Below are positions 21,028 through 34,070 of a stretch of DNA of 43,327 nucleotides, one piece after another. The DNA is from Selenomonadaceae bacterium (GTDB taxonomy: Bacteria; Bacillota; Negativicutes; Selenomonadales; Selenomonadaceae). The notes beneath the pieces were generated by a model. It searched no databases. It saw nothing but the letters and a program-made list of their open reading frames with translations, and was not told the origin of the DNA. Made by a program: the position numbers and the translations under genes. How positions within the stretch are numbered: position 1 is the first letter of the stretch; the number at the start of each line of letters is the position of its first letter. The stretch spans positions 1-43,327 of the forward strand of contig JAGBMX010000061.1 of assembly GCA_017634675.1 (NCBI GenBank). The letters run 5' to 3'.

Positions 21028-23328
21028 TTATTTTTTATTCAAGTAAGCCATAGCGGCGAAGGCTTGACCTAACGCTATGCCGCCGTCGTTTGGCGGGATT
21101 AGAGAGTGAGTCAATACATGAAAGCCGTTGTTTTCCAAGGCTTTTTTTGTTAGCGTTGTTAAGAGTTGATTTTGAAAAACTCCGCCCGATAGGGCGATTT
21201 TCTTTATGTTTGTTTTCTCTTTCGCCCAAAGAGCCGATTGAAGCATTTCAAAAACAAGCGCCTTGTGGAAGAAATAAGCGAGTTTATTCGGATTTTCACC
21301 GTTAAGCCGTCTTTTTAACAGTTCCCTCATAATTCGCTTCGTTCGCATAATACCGTTAAAACTCTCGCTGTTATTAGGAAAAAACATATCCTCCGTAAAC
21401 TCGGGATTTTCGGCTAAAAATTTTTCAGCGGCAAATTCCAAATAAATCGCAGCTTCACCTTCAAAGGTCGAACACTTCCTTATGCCAAGAATGGCGCTCG
21501 CTCCGTCAAAAAGCCTTCCCGCGCTTGTGGAAATCGCCGTGTTAATGTTGTTGTTTAGCATGAACATTACAGCTGAAAATTCCTCTTTTGTAGCTAAATC
21601 AAGTTTTTTTACCGTTTCAAAGACTTTTTCTTCGTCTCCTTCAAATTCTTCGTATAAGAATTGAATTGCAATGCGGTACCCTTCCCTTGAAACCTTATCT
21701 CCCCCCGCAAGTACAAAGGGTTCAATATGGGCAAACCTTTCGTAAGACGTCGCATTCACCCTTAAAAGTTCGCCTCCCCATATAGCGCCGTCTTCCCCGT
21801 AACCCGTACCGTCAAAGGCAAGCCCCAACACTTCGCCGTATTCGTGATTTTCCGCCATACATGAAAGTATATGGGCGTAATGATGTTGGACGAAAAATAC
21901 GGGCAATCCCAATTCTTTTGCTACTGCCGAAGTGTTGTAAAGAGGGTGCGGATCTGCCGCTACGATTTCAGGTCTTATCTCCAAAAGCGACTCCATAAGA
22001 TTAACGGAATCTTTAAGAGCAATGACGCTCCGTAAATCAGTCATATCCCCGATGAATGGCGAAGGATAGAACAATTCGTTTTTTGCAAGACAAAAAGAAT
22101 TTTTAAGTTCGCCGCCTATCGCTAAAACCTCGCCTTTAAAATCAATGTTCATCATAACGGGAAGCGGCGCGTATCCCCTACTTCGCCTTATCATATAAGG
22201 CGCGTTGTTTAAGATTCCCATGACGGAATCATCGGCTCTAAGACGAATTCGCCTGTTGTGGGATAAAATCACGTCCGCAATGCTTGAAAGCGACTCTTTA
22301 GCTTCTTCGTCCGTATGGCAAATAGGCGCGCCGGAGGGATTGCCGCTGGTCATAATGAGTATTTCCGGCATTAGCGCGTCGTCTTCGTCGTCTAATCTAA
22401 AAATCAGGGATTGTATAGGCGCGTAAGGCAACATTACCCCCAAATTGGGATTGTCGATAGCGACATTTTTGGCGACGGGAGAATTGTCCTTTCTCGGTAA
22501 TAAAAGTATTGGTTTTTGCGGGCTTTCTATAATATCTTTCGCCTCATCGGGAATTTTCACAATTTTTGAAAGCGCATCCATATCCTTCGCCATAAGCGCA
22601 AACGGTTTTACCGGGCGACTCTTCCGCTTGCGAAGTTTCGCCACAGCCTCTTCGTTTGTAGCGTCGCAAGATAGATGAAACCCGCCTATTCCCTTGATGG
22701 CGACGATTTCGCCTCTTATTATCGCCCGCCTAACAGCTTTTATCGCCTCTTTACCTTTTAGATTGCTGCCCAAAATATAAACCTCGGGGCCGCAATCGTT
22801 GCAACATACGGGTTGAGCATCGTAACGCCTGTCCTCCGGCGCAAAATATTCCTTTTCGCATTTATCGCACATGGGAAATTCTCCCATGCTTGTGCGCTCC
22901 CTATCGTATGGCATAGCGTCCAAAATCGTGAGCCTAGGGCCGCAAGCGGTACAGTTTATAAAGGGATGCAAATACCTACGATTATTTTTGTCAAAGAGTT
23001 CCCTTTTGCAATCCTCGCAAACCGCAATATCCGGCGATACGAAAATTTTTCCCTCTTCCCTTTCGCTCTCTATTATGGAAAATTCCGAATAATCTTTATC
23101 GGGAACTTTTAAAATATCAAGGGATATTATCGCCGAACGTTTAGGAGCGTGCATTTTTAAGCCTTCCGTAAAATTTTTTAAGGCAACTTCGTCGCCCATA
23201 GCGAATATTTCAACATAAGAACCTTTATTCGCAACGGTACCCATTATGCCAAACTCATCCGCAAGCCGCGCAACAAACGGTCGAAACCCCACCCCTTGCA
23301 CAATTCCGCAAACTTTTATGTTAAGCAT
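21028..23328 (-). CDS. hypF: Carbamoyltransferase HypF
   Basis: 766 aa. Makes the thiocarbamate on HypE from carbamoyl phosphate and ATP, the precursor of the CN ligands of [NiFe]-hydrogenase. Domains in order: acylphosphatase (1-90, VCGIVQGVGFRPFVARLA), two zinc fingers (CEDC...CTAC, 104-129; CDKC...CNDC, 154-179), YrdC-like carbamoyl-AMP domain (about 195-385, KGIGGFHLSCDATNEEAVAKLRKRK) and the Kae1-like C-terminal domain (VQHHYAHILS, LAFDGTGYG, GGVFQNQLL). I chose ATG 23328, inside the end of the nitrogenase K-like gene (8 nt overlap, GAGG upstream), because the protein then starts MLNIKVCGIVQG. The longer frame adds nine unsupported residues. The overlap implies coupling to the nitrogenase-like genes. 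Confidence 0.97.
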   Translation of the reverse strand: MLNIKVCGIVQGVGFRPFVARLADEFGIMGTVANKGSYVEIFAMGDEVALKNFTEGLKMHAPKRSAIISLDILKVPDKDYSEFSIIESEREEGKIFVSPDIAVCEDCKRELFDKNNRRYLHPFINCTACGPRLTILDAMPYDRERTSMGEFPMCDKCEKEYFAPEDRRYDAQPVCCNDCGPEVYILGSNLKGKEAIKAVRRAIIRGEIVAIKGIGGFHLSCDATNEEAVAKLRKRKSRPVKPFALMAKDMDALSKIVKIPDEAKDIIESPQKPILLLPRKDNSPVAKNVAIDNPNLGVMLPYAPIQSLIFRLDDEDDALMPEILIMTSGNPSGAPICHTDEEAKESLSSIADVILSHNRRIRLRADDSVMGILNNAPYMIRRSRGYAPLPVMMNIDFKGEVLAIGGELKNSFCLAKNELFYPSPFIGDMTDLRSVIALKDSVNLMESLLEIRPEIVAADPHPLYNTSAVAKELGLPVFFVQHHYAHILSCMAENHEYGEVLGLAFDGTGYGEDGAIWGGELLRVNATSYERFAHIEPFVLAGGDKVSREGYRIAIQFLYEEFEGDEEKVFETVKKLDLATKEEFSAVMFMLNNNINTAISTSAGRLFDGASAILGIRKCSTFEGEAAIYLEFAAEKFLAENPEFTEDMFFPNNSESFNGIMRTKRIMRELLKRRLNGENPNKLAYFFHKALVFEMLQSALWAKEKTNIKKIALSGGVFQNQLLTTLTKKALENNGFHVLTHSLIPPNDGGIALGQAFAAMAYLNKK

Positions 23329-24364
23329 TACGAGCCTCGCTTCCGCTGACTGCAAAATGGTGAAGCGGTATAAAAGTCTTTTTGTAAAAAGGTATGGCTC
23401 TCATAAATATCCTATCCGCAAAAATAACGTCAAAATCTTCTGCTTTCACATAATCTTGAAAATCTTTTTCCTCCGTAAATTTTACATCGCCAATGCGAGC
23501 GTATTCTTTATCCATTGTGAACCAACAGCCTACCGTAACGGTTTCACGATGCGACAAGCTTTCGATTTTATCCCTGACTGCGTTGGCGCAAAACTGTTCG
23601 TGCATAACTAGATTTTTTCCCTTTTCTTTGGCAATTTCAGCGTTTGAAGGAGACAATTCGCATTTCATTAGCGGACGGAAAACCTCAAAGGGCGTACCGA
23701 ACCTTTCCCTCAGATATTTCGCCGCTTTAAGCCCCGCAATCGAAACCACCAAATTTTTTTCAACGTCTCCCGCTTTTATGAAAGAATCAAGAGAGCCGTC
23801 GTAGCCGTAGAGAAGAATTTCATCGTATGGCTGCGATGCGGCAAATTTTCGCCAATCAAATTTTTCGGGAAAATCAAAATGCGTTGCGCCTAAAATTCCT
23901 AAAACTTTCTTTTTTTTCGTATTGGTCGCAAAAGTTTCGAACAGTTCCACATAAGCCTTGGATATGCCTTCATCGTAGAATCTCGTGCCGTCGGTATCAA
24001 GCGTAACGGCGGGAACGTTAAGTCTGCTTTCAATCATTCGTTTCAGCGCCCTATAATCCGTACCGATAACCGCAGGTACCGGCGTACCGATTATCGCCAC
24101 AAATTTTGCGTTCACCTGTTTTACCGCCGAGGCAAGTTTTTCCACCAACTTTTCGTCCCGCCCCAAAATTGCGTCCATGTCCCTAAGCCCCGCGCTGAAA
24201 ACCGAGCTTTTTTCATTTGTGCGCGGCTCGTCAAAACCCGCTATATTTCCCGCGCAACCTCCCGCGTCCAAAATTACGGTAAAGCCGCCCAATTTGTATA
24301 AAACCGCCGCAGCCCCGCTGTCGTCCGGTGCAAAAGGCGGTATATAGAGTCGTAGTCCTTTCAT
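23321..24364 (-). CDS. Nitrogenase component 1-like protein, NifK/BchB-like position
   Basis: 347 aa, much shorter than NifK (about 520). N-terminus GLRLYIPPFAPDDSGAAAVLYKLGGFTVILDAGGCAGN carries C37 in GGC, the spot of a cluster Cys in this superfamily. The next expected site, S-x-C-xx-E-(I/L)-I-G-D-D, reads IIGTPVPAVIGTDYRALKR (91-109) with no Cys. Other cysteines are C235, C259 and C280. No FeMo-cofactor motif is seen. Overlaps the D-like gene by 4 nt (ATGA) and hypF by 8 nt. Known: reduced, non-N2-fixing nitrogenase homologues (BchNB, CfbD and others) use [4Fe-4S] clusters to reduce other substrates. The specific function here is unknown. Confidence 0.8.
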   Translation of the reverse strand: MKGLRLYIPPFAPDDSGAAAVLYKLGGFTVILDAGGCAGNIAGFDEPRTNEKSSVFSAGLRDMDAILGRDEKLVEKLASAVKQVNAKFVAIIGTPVPAVIGTDYRALKRMIESRLNVPAVTLDTDGTRFYDEGISKAYVELFETFATNTKKKKVLGILGATHFDFPEKFDWRKFAASQPYDEILLYGYDGSLDSFIKAGDVEKNLVVSIAGLKAAKYLRERFGTPFEVFRPLMKCELSPSNAEIAKEKGKNLVMHEQFCANAVRDKIESLSHRETVTVGCWFTMDKEYARIGDVKFTEEKDFQDYVKAEDFDVIFADRIFMRAIPFYKKTFIPLHHFAVSGSEARNA

Positions 24365-25641
24365 TTCTTCACCTTTGCAAGCGCGTTTTCCATCGCCGAA
24401 AAAAGTCCCTTAATCCCGTGATACCCGAAAGGTTGAATTTCCTCATTATAGTAAACGCTCGGAACCCTCGGATGATAATACGCCGCATCCTTACCTAAGG
24501 CAAGGGTTACGCTTGTATCCTCTTTGTAATGAACCATCGTCGGCGAAAGATTGCTCATTATTTTAGTCTCGGGGCTTAATCTTGCCAGATGTTTTAAATA
24601 GGCAAAATCTCGAAGTTCAGGGTCAGCGAAGATTTCTTTTACCTTTAACCCATAGCGCACCATAGCGAGAGCAATTTCAAAGGCGTTACCGTTTATACGC
24701 GAACCAATAGCAAGCTGTTTGTCGCCGTGATTGCTGATAAATTGCTTTACTCTATCCAATGTCTCTTCATAATATACGGCATCATCAATGGGCGCGTCTA
24801 TCGCCTGCGCAAGCGCCGCATATTGGGAGCGTATCTTATCTATTTGGTAAAGTCTTGTAAGTTCAATGGACGGAATGTTTAATTTATTGAGGAAAAATTT
24901 TGCGGCGGCTCTTGCTTCGGGATTTAACACCAAATTAAAATTCGCGTCCGAAAGTTTCTGGTATTCCTCCATTGTTTTGGTTCGCGAAAGTTCTTGGACG
25001 CGCTTTACGCCCGCTTTTCTCAGTATCTCGTAAAGTTCCGCTTTATCGTCAAGCGGCGAAAAATAACCCAGCAAATTTACAACATCGTATTTTTTTTTCG
25101 CAGGTTTCAACAGCGAATAAACCGTCTCTCTCACATACGCCATTGGCGGACGGTGGCTTTCCCTTGTCAGCGCGTACATATAACAGGGTCGGCACGGAAT
25201 GCCGATTTTTTCCTCAACCTTCTTTGCCACCCGCTCCATATCGGTTCCAAGCAGCGCGTCAACGCAAGTTATACAAAGCATAAGAACGGTTGGCAACTCT
25301 TCCCTGCTATTTACAAACTCGTTTGCCGCCTCCGGAATTTTTGTAAGATGTTTTCCCGTAACAATATCGTTTTCATCGAGCAGCAAATAAGCGAACCTTT
25401 CGCCGAAACCCTGTCCCAATGCCGAAGTATTCCTGCCGCAGCAAGCCGGCGACACCAAAAGCATAACGGACCCCGGCACGGAAAGCCCCGCCCGTTTAAC
25501 CCCGAACCCCTCCGCTCCCGGCGAATTAAAATCTAAAGCCGCCGGCGAATTATAAATCAAATGGGCGTTCTTTTGCAGTTCCTCCGGAATACTTCCCCTC
25601 TCAAAAAGCTCCCCCGCCGTTATGTAATAAGCTTCACTCAT
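24361..25641 (-). CDS. Nitrogenase component 1-like protein, NifD/BchN-like position
   Basis: 426 aa. Start ATG 25641 (MSEAYYITAG) with AAAGGAAAG upstream. The longer frame to 25731 only translates the GC-rich repeat. Cluster-binding sites by pattern: C67-C68 in VSPACCGRNTSALG and C123 in MLCITCVDALLGTD, which resembles the S-E-C-x-x-x-(I/L)-G-D-D site, plus C126, C150 and C153. The first P-cluster Cys of NifD is absent. Near the C-terminus PFGYHGIKGLF (404-414) resembles GPYHGFDGF of NifD. In register, Asn399 would replace the FeMo-cofactor ligand His. Not a dinitrogen-fixing enzyme on this evidence. Partner of the adjacent K-like and H-like proteins. Substrate unknown. Confidence 0.82.
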   Translation of the reverse strand: MSEAYYITAGELFERGSIPEELQKNAHLIYNSPAALDFNSPGAEGFGVKRAGLSVPGSVMLLVSPACCGRNTSALGQGFGERFAYLLLDENDIVTGKHLTKIPEAANEFVNSREELPTVLMLCITCVDALLGTDMERVAKKVEEKIGIPCRPCYMYALTRESHRPPMAYVRETVYSLLKPAKKKYDVVNLLGYFSPLDDKAELYEILRKAGVKRVQELSRTKTMEEYQKLSDANFNLVLNPEARAAAKFFLNKLNIPSIELTRLYQIDKIRSQYAALAQAIDAPIDDAVYYEETLDRVKQFISNHGDKQLAIGSRINGNAFEIALAMVRYGLKVKEIFADPELRDFAYLKHLARLSPETKIMSNLSPTMVHYKEDTSVTLALGKDAAYYHPRVPSVYYNEEIQPFGYHGIKGLFSAMENALAKVKK

Positions 25642-25654
25642 AATCTTTCCTTTT

Positions 25655-25730
25655 GTTGGGGCTTTGCCCCAAACCCCACAAGGGCGCTGCCCTTGACCCG
25701 CCAAAGAAGCTTCGCCCCTCTGGACTCCCA
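25655..25730. repeat. GC-rich multi-hairpin dispersed repeat, copy 3
   Basis: Starts GTTGGGGCTTTGCCCC and continues through AAGGGCGCTGCCCTT to TCTGGACTCCC. Homologous to copies at 3385-3454 and 8881-8953. Lies between the H-like stop and the D-like ribosome binding site, 13 nt from the start codon. Confidence 0.85.
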
Positions 25731-25741
25731 TTTAAAAATTT

Positions 25742-26485
25742 CTATTTATAGTTTTGTGCAAACTCGATAAATTTGCGGCTGATTTCATGATTTATGTTTA
25801 TTTCTATCAATGTTTTTCCCATTTCTTCCGCTTTGTTTATATCATCGCATCTCGGTATATCCAATACGATCGGCAAATTATGTTCGTTTGCAAAATTTTT
25901 TACTTTTTCTTCTTCATCAGGTACGTTTCGTCTGTTTAATATAATGCCTTTCACCTTCGCATATCCTCTGTCCGCAAAATTTTCCACGGCAGTTGCGATA
26001 TTATTCGCGGCGTAAAGCGCCATTTTTTCGCCGGAAGTTACGATTAAAACATCTTCGGCGTACCCTTCCCTTATAGGCGCAGCAAAACCTCCGCACACCA
26101 CGTCACCCAATACGTCGTAAAGCACAACATCGGGATTAAACGATTCAAACAGGGAAAGTCTCTCCAAAAGGTTAAACGTAGCGATAATGCCGCGCCCTGC
26201 GCAACCAAGCCCGGGCGTTGGTCCTCCCGTTTCGATGCACAAAATACCCTTATATCCTATTTTAGAAATTTCCTCCAAACTTTCCGGCTCTTTATCGAAA
26301 TCCCGCATATATCCCATAACCGAGGTCAATTCTTCGCCGCTAAGTAAATTCATGGTGGAATCGGCTTTCGGGTCGCAACCTATCTGGCAAACTTTTTTTT
26401 GGAGATTGGCAAAAGCCGCCGACAAATGACTTGTCATGGTGGATTTCCCTATGCCGCCTTTTCCGTAAACCGCAATTCTCTGCAA
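25742..26485 (-). CDS. Nitrogenase iron protein-like ATPase (NifH/BchL/CfbC family)
   Basis: 247 aa. Complete Fe-protein signature: P-loop GKGGIGKS (8-15), [10 protein letters not shown] (switch I, 35-44), and the two cluster-ligand Cys, C95 in GLGCAGRGI and C131 in [13 protein letters not shown]. The protein should be an ATP-driven [4Fe-4S] electron donor to the D/K-like partner encoded directly downstream. Somewhat shorter than NifH (about 275-295), lacking the long C-terminal tail. The start is TTG 26485 ([11 protein letters not shown]), with GGGAGCGGGAAG before it. First gene of the string H-D-K-hypF-hypC-DUF389-hypD. No nifB, nifE, nifN, nifV or glnB genes are present. Confidence 0.9.
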
Positions 26486-26806: not shown

Positions 26807-28075
26807 GTGGCTGTTATTCTTGGTATACTTATTGCATGTTTAGTTGTATGGCGACTTTATATAATTTGTAAAATGATATGGACTTACGATTTTTTTGTTG
26901 GAATGGTAAAATTAGTCATAGCACTACTATGTGGTAGAATTATTTTTATTATGAGTAACGCTTTGACTAGGTTAGAGACATCGCAAGACTTTCTTCGTTT
27001 TATGTTCTTTTATGTTATGCACTCGTTTTTACCCATTGCGTTGTTAGCTGTCGGAATATTTTTTTTGTTGCATAATATTCGCAATGGGTATAATAGAAAA
27101 ATCTTATCTAAACTTATACCGTTAAGCAGCGGGGTAATCATTTTACTTGTAGCTTTATCTGTGGCAATATTATACAGTTTTCCGTATATAGATAGAATCT
27201 TTTTAAATAAATCAATAAACGATAATAATTTTTTGCTTTATGCCTATGTATCGGTGACTTTTTTTATTAAAATGGTATTGTGTCTTGTAATATTTTACAT
27301 AATAGATATTCTTTTTAAAAAATTGGCGGCAAAGCTTTCGCTAAAACGCATGAAAGTCGGAATGGGATATGGTATTGCAGGAGCTGTTTTATTGTTCGTT
27401 TTAGGCGCAATTCTAATGTTCTTTATGAGCTACAATCACTTTAAATTTTTTTCGTACGCTTTTATGCTACTACCGGTTTTATTGGTTGCTGTCGTTTCAA
27501 AACATGCAAATGTTACTTGCGCGGTTTTAATCAATATATGCTTTTTAGGACTTATTGCATTTAAATATGATAGTGGTGGATCTTTTGATGATGGTATGGA
27601 TTTTGATGCAGGAGGTTCATATGATTACACTGGAGATATAACGGTTTCGTCAGTTGACGTTTCGTCTGATTTTGGTTCATCGTCAGTTTCAAATAACGCA
27701 AGCATTAACTACGCAGATACTAATTTTTCAACACCGAGTAACTCTTCTGGCATGGAAGCATATATGCAGGGAGACGGAACGGTTCAGAGCGTTATGGTGA
27801 ATTCTGTCGGAGATACCACCACTATTTCAGATTTGTCCGGTGGTCTTATGACTTGCCTAAATGATGGTACTATTTTAAATTCACTAGGTATAGCAGATGG
27901 CAGGATTGACATGTCAAATATGAGTAATATCAAGATTTTTGACGCAAATAATCAACTTGCATTTACAATGGAAAACAATGTTATATTCGACAAACTTCAT
28001 CAGGTTGCGTATACGATTCAAGACGGGACATTGTTTGACGCTAATCATAAGTTAGTGGCAAAATTGATGTCATAA
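26807..28075 (+). CDS. Membrane protein of unknown function with C-terminal 16-residue repeats
   Basis: 422 aa, family not recognised. Residues 1-252 hold about seven or eight hydrophobic helices (for example 31-50, 68-88, 105-125, 143-167, 186-208, 215-231, 236-252). A Ser/Asp/Gly-rich low-complexity linker follows (254-315, SGGSFDDGMDFDAGGSYDY). The tail is beta-rich by pattern and ends with three consecutive units: IFDANNQLAFTMENNV, IFDKLHQVAYTIQDGT and LFDANHKLVAKLMS (377-422). GTG start with AAAGGGTGG upstream, own consensus promoter and own terminator, so monocistronic. Base composition is visibly more AT-rich than its neighbours, which hints at transfer. It faces away from the nitrogenase-like operon. 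Confidence 0.85.
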   Translation: MAVILGILIACLVVWRLYIICKMIWTYDFFVGMVKLVIALLCGRIIFIMSNALTRLETSQDFLRFMFFYVMHSFLPIALLAVGIFFLLHNIRNGYNRKILSKLIPLSSGVIILLVALSVAILYSFPYIDRIFLNKSINDNNFLLYAYVSVTFFIKMVLCLVIFYIIDILFKKLAAKLSLKRMKVGMGYGIAGAVLLFVLGAILMFFMSYNHFKFFSYAFMLLPVLLVAVVSKHANVTCAVLINICFLGLIAFKYDSGGSFDDGMDFDAGGSYDYTGDITVSSVDVSSDFGSSSVSNNASINYADTNFSTPSNSSGMEAYMQGDGTVQSVMVNSVGDTTTISDLSGGLMTCLNDGTILNSLGIADGRIDMSNMSNIKIFDANNQLAFTMENNVIFDKLHQVAYTIQDGTLFDANHKLVAKLMS

Positions 28076-28180: not shown

Positions 28181-28555
28181 TTAATCCTTAATCGCCACAA
28201 CCTCGATCTCGCACAGCGCGCCTTTGGGCAAATCTTTAACGGCTACGCAGCTTCTGGCGGGCTTATGGGAAAAATATTTGCCGTATACTTCGTTAAACGC
28301 CGCAAAATCGTTGATGTCCGCCAAAAAACAGGTGGTTTTTACCACATTTGTAAATTCTGCGCCGGCTTCTTTCAGTACCGCCTCTATGTTTTTGCAACAT
28401 TGTTCCGTTTGTCCCGCTATATCCTTTGCGACAATATCTCCCGCTTTAGGGTCGATTGCGATTTGCCCCGATAAAAAGAGCGTGTTCCCCGCTTCTATCG
28501 CTTGACTATATGGACCTACAGCTTTTGGCGCATCGTCCGTATGAATAATGTTCAT
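28181..28555 (-). CDS. ridA: RidA family 2-iminobutanoate/2-iminopropanoate deaminase
   Basis: 124 aa. Hydrolyses reactive enamine/imine intermediates from PLP enzymes such as threonine dehydratase. Family motifs: AVGPYSQAIEAGNTLFLSGQIAIDP (12-36), the catalytic Arg in PARSCVAVKDLPKGALCEIEVVAI (99-122). GGAGG lies 8 nt before ATG 28555. The longer frame upstream to 28777 reads through the purine/pyrimidine hairpin and out of nrdD, and is not protein-like. Follows nrdD on the same strand, separated by the repeat, so co-transcription is possible but the hairpin may attenuate it. Confidence 0.95.
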   Translation of the reverse strand: MNIIHTDDAPKAVGPYSQAIEAGNTLFLSGQIAIDPKAGDIVAKDIAGQTEQCCKNIEAVLKEAGAEFTNVVKTTCFLADINDFAAFNEVYGKYFSHKPARSCVAVKDLPKGALCEIEVVAIKD

Positions 28556-28582: not shown

Positions 28583-28666
28583 AAAGTTTTTTCTTTCTCT
28601 TTTTTCTTTGCTTCTTTCTTTTTTCTCTTTCTTTTTTACAAAAAAGAAAGAGAAAAAAGAAAGAAG
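28583..28666. repeat. Purine/pyrimidine hairpin repeat, copy B
   Basis: Arms 28611-28637 and 28640-28666 are 27 bp perfectly complementary, with only AC between them, and AAAGTTTTTTC... precedes them. Opposite orientation to copies A and C. It begins 14 nt beyond the nrdD stop codon, exactly where the missing end of nrdD would be expected. Confidence 0.9.
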
Positions 28667-28680
28667 AATTTTATCGTTTA

Positions 28681-30924
28681 CTACAACATTCTTTCGTCTA
28701 AAATAATAACGCCTTCTTCGATTTCCTTTCTGTGGCAATGAGGACATTCGGAGGCGATAATCCCGGTATAACCGCATACGGGATCTCTGTCTACGGGATG
28801 GTTTATGGAAAAATAGCCCATATCGTGATCGTGCATGGCGCGAACTACTCTTATAAAAGCGTCGATGTTTTGAGATGGATCGCCGTCCATTTCGATATAA
28901 GCGATATGTCCCGCATTTTCTATAGCGTGATACGGCGCTTCGATGCGAATTTTGTCGATGGCTCGAATGGGATAATATACCGGCACATGACTTGAATTTG
29001 TCATATATTCTCTGTCGGTAACTCCTTTAATTATGCCGTAAACCTTGCGATTTGCGCGTTGGAACTGTCCCGCCGTAGATTCCGCAGGCGTGCCGAAACA
29101 AGTCCAATTCATTTTTTCCTTCTTGGTATAATCGTCAAGGGCGTTCCTAAGGTGCTTTACGATTTTCAGCCCCAATTCCTGCGCTTCTTCGCTTTCGCCG
29201 TGATGTTTGCCCGTAAGCGCCACCAAACATTCAGCAAGCCCGCAAAACCCAACCGAGAAGGAGGCGTGTTTTAAAACTTCGCCTATTTTATCCGAAGGTT
29301 TAAGTTTATCGCTGTCCATCCAAACGCCTTGTCCCATTAAAAAGGGATAATTGTAAACGTGCTTTTCGGCGATGGTTTTCAATCGGAACAGCAAATAATC
29401 ATGTGAAAGTACAATATAGTGATTGTAAAGCCGCCAAAATTCCATCTCGTCGCCTTTTGCTTCTAAGGCGATTTTGGGAAGATTTATGGTGACAAAGGAG
29501 AAATTTCCGCGACTTCCCGATTCGGAAGGCCCGTTCACATTGCTCATAACCCTTGTGCGGCAACCCATCGTTGCAACATAACTGTTGTAGTCGCCCGGTT
29601 TATAATATTCGAGATTATAAGGCGCATCAAGATTTACAAAATTCGGAAAGAGTCGTTTTGCGCTGACCTCGCAAGCCCTGCGAAACAAATCGTAATTGGG
29701 GTCGTCTTCGTTGTAATTTACCCCCGCTTTTAATTGGAAAACGGAAATTGGGAAGATAGGCGTTTCGCCGTTGCCAAGTCCCGCCATAATCGCTTCCAAT
29801 ACCTCTCTTGTCGCAAGCCTGCCCTCAGGCGACGTGTCCATACCGTAATTTATCGAAGAAAACGGAACTTGCGCGCCGGCTCTTGAATGAAGCGTGTTAA
29901 AATTGTGTATCAGAGCCTCCATCGCCTGATGAGTTTCTTCTTCCACATCTTCGCACGCAAGTTTATATATATGCTCTGCAAGGTTTCTTACATCGCCTTC
30001 GACTTTGTCTCCCAAAACTTTTTTAAGCAAGTCTTCGACTGCGCCAACGCTTTTATCTCTCGCTTCTCCCGCATTTTCGGTATACGCAATCAAGTCTTCG
30101 CTTATAAGCGACAAAACTTTTTTTACAAATTCTTTACGGTTTAAATCCCGATCAATATAAACCCCCGCTTTATATATTTCGTCCGCAACGGCTTTTTTAA
30201 AAGATTTACGCACGCCTTCCGCCATCGCGTAGTCGAAACAGTTTATGCTCTGACCGCCGAACATATCGTTCTGGTTGGATTGTATCGCTATACAGGCAAG
30301 GGAAGCGTAAGCGCGTATAGAATTAGGCTCTCTTATAAAGCCGTGCCCCGTGGAGAAGCCGCCTTTAAACAGCTTCAACAAATCAATCTGGCAACAGTTA
30401 AAAGTTATAAGGCTGAAATCCTTGTCGTGGATATGTATGAAATCATCCTTGTCGGCGGCGGCGAAGGCTTCCGGCAAAACGTAATTGTCAACGAAATGTT
30501 TCGCGCCCTCGGCTCCCAACTTTAGCATTATGCCCATGGAAGCGTCCGTATTTATATTGGCATTGTCGCGTTTAAAATCCGCATCCACAGCGTCCGCAAA
30601 AAATATCTCCCTATAAGCGTCCATCAAATGTTTTTGCGCTTTGCGTCGCTCTTCGTGACGATGCCTATAACGAATATATTTCTTTGCAATATCAAAATAT
30701 CCGTGTTTCATGAGCGCCTGCTCCACGATATCTTGAATTTCCTCAACGGTAACCGCGGTACGCTCCGCAATCTTTCCCTCGACAGCAAGTGTTACGGAAC
30801 GCATCTCGCTGTCCGTCATCTTCTCCGTGCTGTCGCTGTTCGCGCCCTTTATGGCGTTAAAAATCTTTTCCTGATCGTAATCAACGGTAAGACCCGACCT
30901 TTTGGTAACTTTCTGCAATTTCAT
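28681..30924 (-). CDS. nrdD: Anaerobic ribonucleoside-triphosphate reductase NrdD, lacking the C-terminal glycyl-radical motif
   Basis: 747 aa class III ribonucleotide reductase. ATP-cone (about 3-95, KVTKRSGLTVDYDQEKIFNAI), NCCQIDLL (176-183), catalytic thiyl Cys C455 in MGCRTRVMSN followed by GNFSFVTINLPKIA, and FGTPAESTAGQF (610-621). The C-terminus follows the family (YFSINHPVDRDPVCGYTGII, then CPHC at 727-730) but then ends KEIEEGVIILDERML. The expected R-I-R-R-(I/V)-(T/C)-G-Y-L segment with the radical glycine is absent, and no frame between here and ridA encodes it. As written the enzyme could not hold a glycyl radical. Start ATG 30924 with GAGGGG upstream. The frame to 30975 is untranslated leader. 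No nrdG in the window. Confidence 0.93.
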   Translation of the reverse strand: MKLQKVTKRSGLTVDYDQEKIFNAIKGANSDSTEKMTDSEMRSVTLAVEGKIAERTAVTVEEIQDIVEQALMKHGYFDIAKKYIRYRHRHEERRKAQKHLMDAYREIFFADAVDADFKRDNANINTDASMGIMLKLGAEGAKHFVDNYVLPEAFAAADKDDFIHIHDKDFSLITFNCCQIDLLKLFKGGFSTGHGFIREPNSIRAYASLACIAIQSNQNDMFGGQSINCFDYAMAEGVRKSFKKAVADEIYKAGVYIDRDLNRKEFVKKVLSLISEDLIAYTENAGEARDKSVGAVEDLLKKVLGDKVEGDVRNLAEHIYKLACEDVEEETHQAMEALIHNFNTLHSRAGAQVPFSSINYGMDTSPEGRLATREVLEAIMAGLGNGETPIFPISVFQLKAGVNYNEDDPNYDLFRRACEVSAKRLFPNFVNLDAPYNLEYYKPGDYNSYVATMGCRTRVMSNVNGPSESGSRGNFSFVTINLPKIALEAKGDEMEFWRLYNHYIVLSHDYLLFRLKTIAEKHVYNYPFLMGQGVWMDSDKLKPSDKIGEVLKHASFSVGFCGLAECLVALTGKHHGESEEAQELGLKIVKHLRNALDDYTKKEKMNWTCFGTPAESTAGQFQRANRKVYGIIKGVTDREYMTNSSHVPVYYPIRAIDKIRIEAPYHAIENAGHIAYIEMDGDPSQNIDAFIRVVRAMHDHDMGYFSINHPVDRDPVCGYTGIIASECPHCHRKEIEEGVIILDERML

Positions 30925-30945
30925 GGGCATCCCCTCGCACAACAT

Positions 30946-31006
30946 CTTGTATAAAAAAATTCTCCGATACAACATATATTGTATCAGAGAATTTTTTTTT
31001 TACAAG
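30946..31006. promoter_or_regulatory. 61-nt near-palindrome in the nrdD leader (bidirectional terminator or operator)
   Basis: CTTGTA...A-run, TTCTC, GATACAA, a short centre, TTGTATC, GAGAA, T-run...TACAAG: nested arms with two internal mismatches. On the minus strand the hairpin lies between clpB (stop 31123) and nrdD (start 30924) and is followed by a T-run, so it can end clpB transcripts. It may also regulate nrdD. The centre resembles, but is out of register with, an NrdR box. Confidence 0.6.
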
Positions 31007-31008
31007 TA

Positions 31009-31107
31009 CTTCTTCTTTCTTTTCTCTTTATCTTTCTTTTTTGTAAAAAAGAAAAAGAAAGAGAAAAGGAAGAAGCAAAGAAAAGAGAAAGAGAAAGAAA
31101 AAACTTT
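31009..31107. repeat. Purine/pyrimidine hairpin repeat, copy C
   Basis: CTTCTTCTTTC arm, TTTTTTGTAAAAAA turn and a purine arm ending GGAAGAAG, then a second purine tract ending AAAAAACTTT. The arms are imperfect but largely complementary. Shares the following string (TTTGTCAAACTT) with copy D. Lies between clpB and nrdD. Confidence 0.85.
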
Positions 31108-34010: not shown

Positions 34011-34070
34011 AAAGTTTTTTCTCTTTTCTTTTTCTTTTTTAAAAAAAAGAAAATAGAAAAAGAAAGTAAG
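34011..34070. repeat. Purine/pyrimidine hairpin repeat, copy D
   Basis: AAAGTTTTTTCTCTTTTC..., TTTTTTAAAAAAAA turn, then a purine arm ending AGAAAGTAAG. Opposite orientation to A and C, shorter, and lacks the CTTTG spacer tract. Flanked by near-inverted AATTCTTAAAAACCCTT (33945-33961) and AAGGTTTTTAGAATT (34068-34082). Lies 36 nt upstream of the LCP gene. Confidence 0.75.

Follow-up and report, generated by a model that had tools for sequence, protein, structure and literature searches.

The DNA examined here, referred to below as the window, is a stretch of 43,327 nucleotides (positions 1 to 43,327 of contig JAGBMX010000061.1, assembly GCA_017634675.1) from a Selenomonadaceae bacterium of the gut, and it carries on its reverse strand an nrdD gene for the catalytic protein of a class III ribonucleotide reductase (RNR) that ends before the segment in which such enzymes bear their radical glycine (Table 1). 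The open reading frame (ORF) comprises 764 codons, with the true start probably near 30924–30945. The protein scores above the curated cut-off for the NRDD catalytic barrel (PF13597; 580 bits, E-value 5.7e-174), with the match reaching only to profile position 533 of 562, and above that of NCBIfam PRK07111 (947.9 bits against a cut-off of 764), with the match reaching only to position 713 of 746. It retains the ATP-cone, the zinc-site cysteines of CPHC and the MGCRTR finger loop, the cysteine of which is presumably the thiyl-radical cysteine of class III RNRs, and an AlphaFold2 (AF2) model of the core gave a Z-score of 39 over 532 residues against the Prevotella copri NrdD. The C-terminus reads ...DPVCGYTGIIASECPHCHRKEIEEGVIILDERML and is followed by tandem stops (TAG TAA), while in full-length relatives the radical glycine lies 17 to 19 residues past CPxC; a six-frame regular-expression scan of the whole window found no R-[RK]-x(1-3)-G-Y-L. 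An earlier sequence-only reading of this DNA, which had the protein stopping 17 residues past CPHC and before the radical glycine, no glycyl-radical segment between the stop and ridA, and a hairpin copy beginning 14 nt past the stop, was accurate on these three points.

Table 1. Features of the nrdD locus and of the separate radical-domain locus. Positions are those of the window unless a contig or locus handle is given (G000 is the window's own genome).
Feature	Position	Strand	Basis
Core of nrdD (class III ribonucleotide reductase), glycine loop missing	28681..30975	-	Pfam NRDD 5.7e-174; PRK07111; AF2 model
ATP-cone, activity-regulating domain	30649..30912	-	Pfam PF03477, residues 22-109, 5e-20
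MGCRTR finger loop, intact, with presumed thiyl-radical cysteine	29551..29568	-	sequence position; alignment
Zinc-site segment DPVCGYTGIIASECPHC, retained	28735..28785	-	alignment, sequence scan
17-residue tail past CPHC, ending at radical-Gly position	28684..28734	-	comparison with full-length relatives
Stop codon, second stop directly after	28681..28683	-	sequence
Purine/pyrimidine hairpin, perfect 27-bp inverted repeat, 2-nt loop	28611..28666	.	sequence
ridA, downstream neighbour	28181..28555	-	Pfam Ribonuc_L-PSP; start read from sequence
Small glycyl-radical protein, 98 aa	G000:C19:4187-4480		PF13597 search of own genome
NrdG, 168-aa radical SAM protein	L035:1794-2300		beside small gene; Fer4_12 + Radical_SAM

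When the window's own genome was searched with PF13597, the core was recovered together with an ORF of 100 codons on another contig which matches NRDD positions 530–562 (E-value 5e-7). The encoded protein, MKKMRVNDVEVKVIGFDGVTEKEVSHYIDYIENETHEPLKTLFIERTADNKVALKYSMKKQKFERIRRITGYLVGTIDRWNNAKREEEHERVKHGVSK, consists of an N-terminal domain of about 58 residues followed by KFERIRRITGYLVGTIDRWNNAKREEEHERVKH, and its C-terminal 40 residues form a class III RNR glycyl-radical domain (GRD) with the motif RRITGYLVG, so that the radical glycine absent from the NrdD chain is found on a separate, free-standing protein. The GRD of this small-protein family matches residues 697–739 of P. copri NrdD (E-value 1e-12), an enzyme whose radical residue, Gly711, lies in the same C-terminal domain as the zinc site (PMC11226230). 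The end of the small gene overlaps by 4 nt the start of nrdG, which provides the genome with an NrdG activase. The proposal that the radical-bearing tail might come from a small protein acting in trans, following a YfiD-like logic, is therefore supported, and the free-standing glycyl-radical peptide and nrdG for which a genome search had been suggested were both located, on another contig. NRDD was the only family to which the small protein scored above cut-off (Gly_radical, PF01228, did not reach its own), and no Pfam or NCBIfam family matched its first ~58 residues. An AF2 model built on 100 aligned homologues has a mean predicted local distance difference test score (pLDDT) of 81; its N-domain is a confidently predicted β-α-β-β fold, whereas the radical domain is modelled less surely. 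Foldseek returned nothing for the N-domain with an E-value below 0.09, and the best VIA-align Z-scores, 5.5 for the ToxR periplasmic domain and 3–4 for HPF-like proteins, are too weak to name the fold. A profile of the N-domain produced only nine matches over 249 genomes of the phylum, and therefore either the profile is insensitive or the family is patchy.

The truncated NrdD and the small protein recur together across the family, which we sampled with 111 Selenomonadaceae genomes, 105 of them with NrdD; relatives in Selenomonas, Anaerovibrio, Megamonas, Schwartzia and Mitsuokella place the window in this family. Two NrdD clades are present, one resembling the window protein (72–98% identity) and another at 51–55% identity, and both stop at the same place. 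In nearly all of the NrdD-bearing genomes the match ends at profile positions 529–541 and a separate small protein is present, whereas three genomes (G013, G108 and G129) have only a full-length NrdD and no separate Gly-bearing protein. The split NrdDs end 13–31 residues past CPxC, compared with a glycine at 17–19 in the full-length proteins, and the catalytic motifs, including the MGCRTR loop, are invariant in the alignment of split and fused forms. At 33 of the 40 small-protein loci examined, the next gene downstream, in the same orientation, is nrdG, and in the more distant NrdD clade nrdD comes first, followed by the small gene and then nrdG. A single small protein accompanies two truncated NrdDs in Anaerovibrio RM50. 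An assembly error or frameshift was ruled out as the cause of the short protein, as independent metagenome-assembled genomes (MAGs) and isolates end alike: the C-terminus is the same in another MAG from the genus (G001, NrdD 98% identical), and G002 (86% identical) stops at the same place. Within the genus the ratio of nonsynonymous to synonymous substitution rates (dN/dS) is 0.03–0.04 for nrdD, a sign of strong purifying selection, and 0.068 for the gene of the small protein.

Another RNR that might do the work was sought and not found. Neither the window's genome nor most of the family, including three single-contig genomes with only a split NrdD (G009, G010 and G020), has a match to the class I/II barrel PF02867, which also leaves NrdJab without a candidate in G000. 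TIGR02505, the model for monomeric class II enzymes, likewise had no match in G000, G009 or G010. As no class I or II enzyme is found in this genome or in its closed split relatives, the two-piece enzyme must, judging from gene content, be a working one. That the small protein belongs to a pyruvate formate-lyase (PFL)-type radical enzyme or to GrcA was also rejected: in the window's genome, which is 85% complete, PF01228 had no match above its cut-off, either to another glycyl radical enzyme or to a PFL partner. The reading that we consider very probable (about 0.9) is that of an obligate two-chain class III RNR, with its catalytic subunit encoded in the window and its radical glycine borne by a separate protein of ~98 residues.

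Some observations count against this conclusion. Because of the incompleteness of the window's genome, the absence of other RNRs from it rests partly on the relatives; six of the 111 family genomes have no NrdD match, and in G024 the gene runs off the contig; and the isolated GRD is modelled with only moderate confidence (block pLDDT 63–76), which is expected since the barrel is absent and yet is no proof of docking.

In the two-chain enzyme as we envisage it, the catalytic subunit would contribute the ATP-cone, the ten-stranded barrel, the thiyl-radical cysteine loop and the zinc site, and would end at the position of the radical glycine, while the glycine loop and C-terminal tail would come from the ~98-residue protein encoded immediately upstream of nrdG. 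The two would form a complex, with the β-α-β-β N-domain probably docking the small protein onto the core. NrdG would install the radical on the glycine of the small protein, most likely while this protein is bound to NrdD, and from there it would move to the NrdD cysteine of the MGCRT loop for catalysis as in single-chain enzymes. By analogy with the β-strand safety lever of YfiD, the N-domain might block radical formation on the free small protein. The truncated core resembles in shape the oxygen-cleaved enzyme that YfiD repairs in PFL (PMC8683613), because the zinc part is kept, the remainder is lost and the end falls at the radical-glycine position, and the obligate subunit may have descended from a spare part that became compulsory.

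It is very unlikely that the small protein merely repairs an oxygen-cleaved full-length NrdD, as YfiD does for PFL, instead of being an obligate subunit: Ruminococcus, Eggerthellaceae, Roseburia and others do have a full-length NrdD together with the small protein, but in the window's genome, as in most Selenomonadaceae, there is no full-length NrdD to repair. Repair is the likely role of the small protein in those other bacteria and may have been its ancestral role in the Selenomonadaceae. We regard as very unlikely a truncated NrdD that keeps its radical on another residue while the small protein serves a different enzyme; the sequence is compatible with a non-glycine radical, but PF01228 brings up no further glycyl radical enzyme above its cut-off in the genome, the small gene is linked with nrdG, and family genomes with a full-length NrdD have no separate copy. 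The sequence-only reading had also offered an account in which the arrival of the hairpin repeat or a local rearrangement removed the 3' end of nrdD and left an inactive enzyme, and the hairpin does sit 14 nt from the stop. This account has been refuted by the comparison with related nrdD genes that the same reading had called for and is now highly improbable: relatives at 72–98% identity stop at the same place with or without a hairpin (none follows nrdD in G002), the whole family ends there, the low dN/dS of nrdD does not fit a dead enzyme, and no other RNR was found; we judge the hairpin to be unrelated to the truncation. Finally, a rejoining of the two pieces at the RNA or protein level (trans-splicing or a split intein) would fit the core ending and the radical loop beginning at nearly the same point, and intein- or intron-like interruptions in some relatives, but is most improbable, as the small protein has its own start and a conserved N-domain that is predicted to fold and is under purifying selection, and the core tails are divergent and finish in stops.

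The obligate two-chain RNR is assembled from parts of known kinds, namely a class III RNR and spare-part radical domains, and searches of open-access papers turned up neither this combination nor an obligately split enzyme with its radical domain on a chain of its own. The window NrdD has the ATP-cone, barrel, cysteine finger loop and zinc site in common with the NrdDs of P. copri (PDB 8p23) and phage T4 (1hk8), and differs in that known NrdDs have the radical glycine on the same chain (Gly711 in P. copri; PMC11226230), whereas in the window's genome it belongs to another protein, which has an additional domain. The small protein is like YfiD/GrcA and T4 Y06I, the spare parts of PFL (PMC8683613), in being a small free-standing glycyl-radical domain that completes a core cut at the glycine, and like them is also phage-borne. 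Unlike YfiD/GrcA it would serve an RNR and not PFL, belongs to the NRDD and not the Gly_radical family, has an N-domain predicted to be folded instead of disordered, and appears to be obligate in the Selenomonadaceae. Among RNRs, the split class II enzyme NrdJa/NrdJb of Pseudomonas is also divided in its C-terminal part into two chains, but is B12-dependent, with a second chain that has zinc-finger and IscU-like domains and no radical (cited in PMC9669993). Phage nrdD genes in pieces (phiAS4, 949 and c-st; PMC3653736) are similar in being divided, but were attributed in that 2013 survey to fragmentation or to introns, inteins and homing endonucleases, and not to a conserved separation of the radical domain.

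Homologs of ~95 residues occur beyond the family alongside full-length NrdDs in Ruminococcus, Raoultibacter, Adlercreutzia, Marvinbryantia, Roseburia and others, also in Eggerthellaceae, where by analogy they are likely to be spare parts like YfiD/GrcA. In other Negativicutes the small protein is 52–75% identical to the GRD of one co-resident NrdD subfamily, the second, and only 24–25% identical to that of the first, which suggests that it co-evolves with its specific NrdD partner. Among 39 virus records, which may be fragments, nine pair the small gene with a truncated NrdD and the other 30 show the small gene only. Seven changes are needed to account for the split state in a tree built from 62 NrdD cores, at least four of them forced by well-supported branches, and repeated loss of the attached domain where a stand-alone copy was present is the simplest account; as the tree was midpoint-rooted, we only infer the direction of change. 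Taken more widely, it seems fairly likely that an unnamed stand-alone glycyl-radical family serves anaerobic RNRs, as a spare part in many gut anaerobes whose NrdD is full-length, as a subunit that became compulsory several times independently (in Selenomonadaceae, some other Firmicutes and phages), and as a gene carried alone by phages to revive or take over the host RNR.

Andorfer et al. (2021; PMC8683613) listed only YfiD and Y06I, both for PFL, as validated spare parts and asked about other glycyl radical enzymes. The small protein offers a concrete and testable answer for RNR, an essential enzyme of DNA precursor synthesis, and the Selenomonadaceae would provide natural genomes with a compulsory radical subunit and a two-chain system whose radical domain could be varied in amount and swapped for others. 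The small gene of phages, which has no assigned function, probably aids nucleotide supply during infection. A truncated NrdD in Selenomonadaceae should also not be annotated as a pseudogene.

Several variants of the two genes were noted in passing. One genus (g13) is an exception in the family in that its NrdD copies are interrupted or rearranged, with one (G179) matching the full profile; the interruption falls around profile position 265 within a single long open frame (G146:C2:43649-46507, 1095 aa in G146; G184:C81; G179:C60), which suggests an intein. In the same genus (L309–L313) the stand-alone radical-domain gene is broken straight after the radical-glycine codon by inserts of roughly 240–700 nt. 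These recall group I introns in that a T closes the exon before the insert and a G closes both of the inserts that were read through to their ends, but Rfam matched no known intron in these interrupted genes. A paralogue of the small protein (L285:567-800, L286:969-1205 and the L287 ORF 932-1282), conserved in several Selenomonadaceae, has kept the N-domain and FERIRR strand and lost the glycine loop; an apparent Rrf2-type regulator adjoins it at two of the three loci, and it may serve to regulate or plug the split RNR. In G001 a second radical-domain homolog lies after a PPPP linker inside a 425-aa ORF (L289:103-1380), a possible fusion or phage gene. A Clostridia MAG has an nrdD ending in ...VERIRRLSGAAGGAAQPGG..., a degenerate radical domain, with a stand-alone protein in the same genome (L241 with L123), and may represent a stage on the way to losing the attached domain. 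Stand-alone radical domains of ~50 residues without the N-domain were seen in L197, L207, L224 and similar virus records.

Elsewhere in the window, positions 23321–26485 encode a NifH-like ATPase and two nitrogenase component-1-like proteins, followed by hypF; the two proteins scanned against NCBIfam fell below every equivalog cut-off, and the genes are taken to encode a nitrogenase-like reductase. Between the nifH-like gene and ridA, on the opposite strand, a 422-aa membrane protein with a repetitive C-terminus (26807–28075) has no Pfam match. The hairpin beside nrdD is one of three related intergenic purine/pyrimidine hairpins in the window, the others being at 31012–31075 and 34015–34065, and a similar stretch lies past nrdG in L002 (near 2116–2253); these are probably copies of a genome-wide intergenic repeat.
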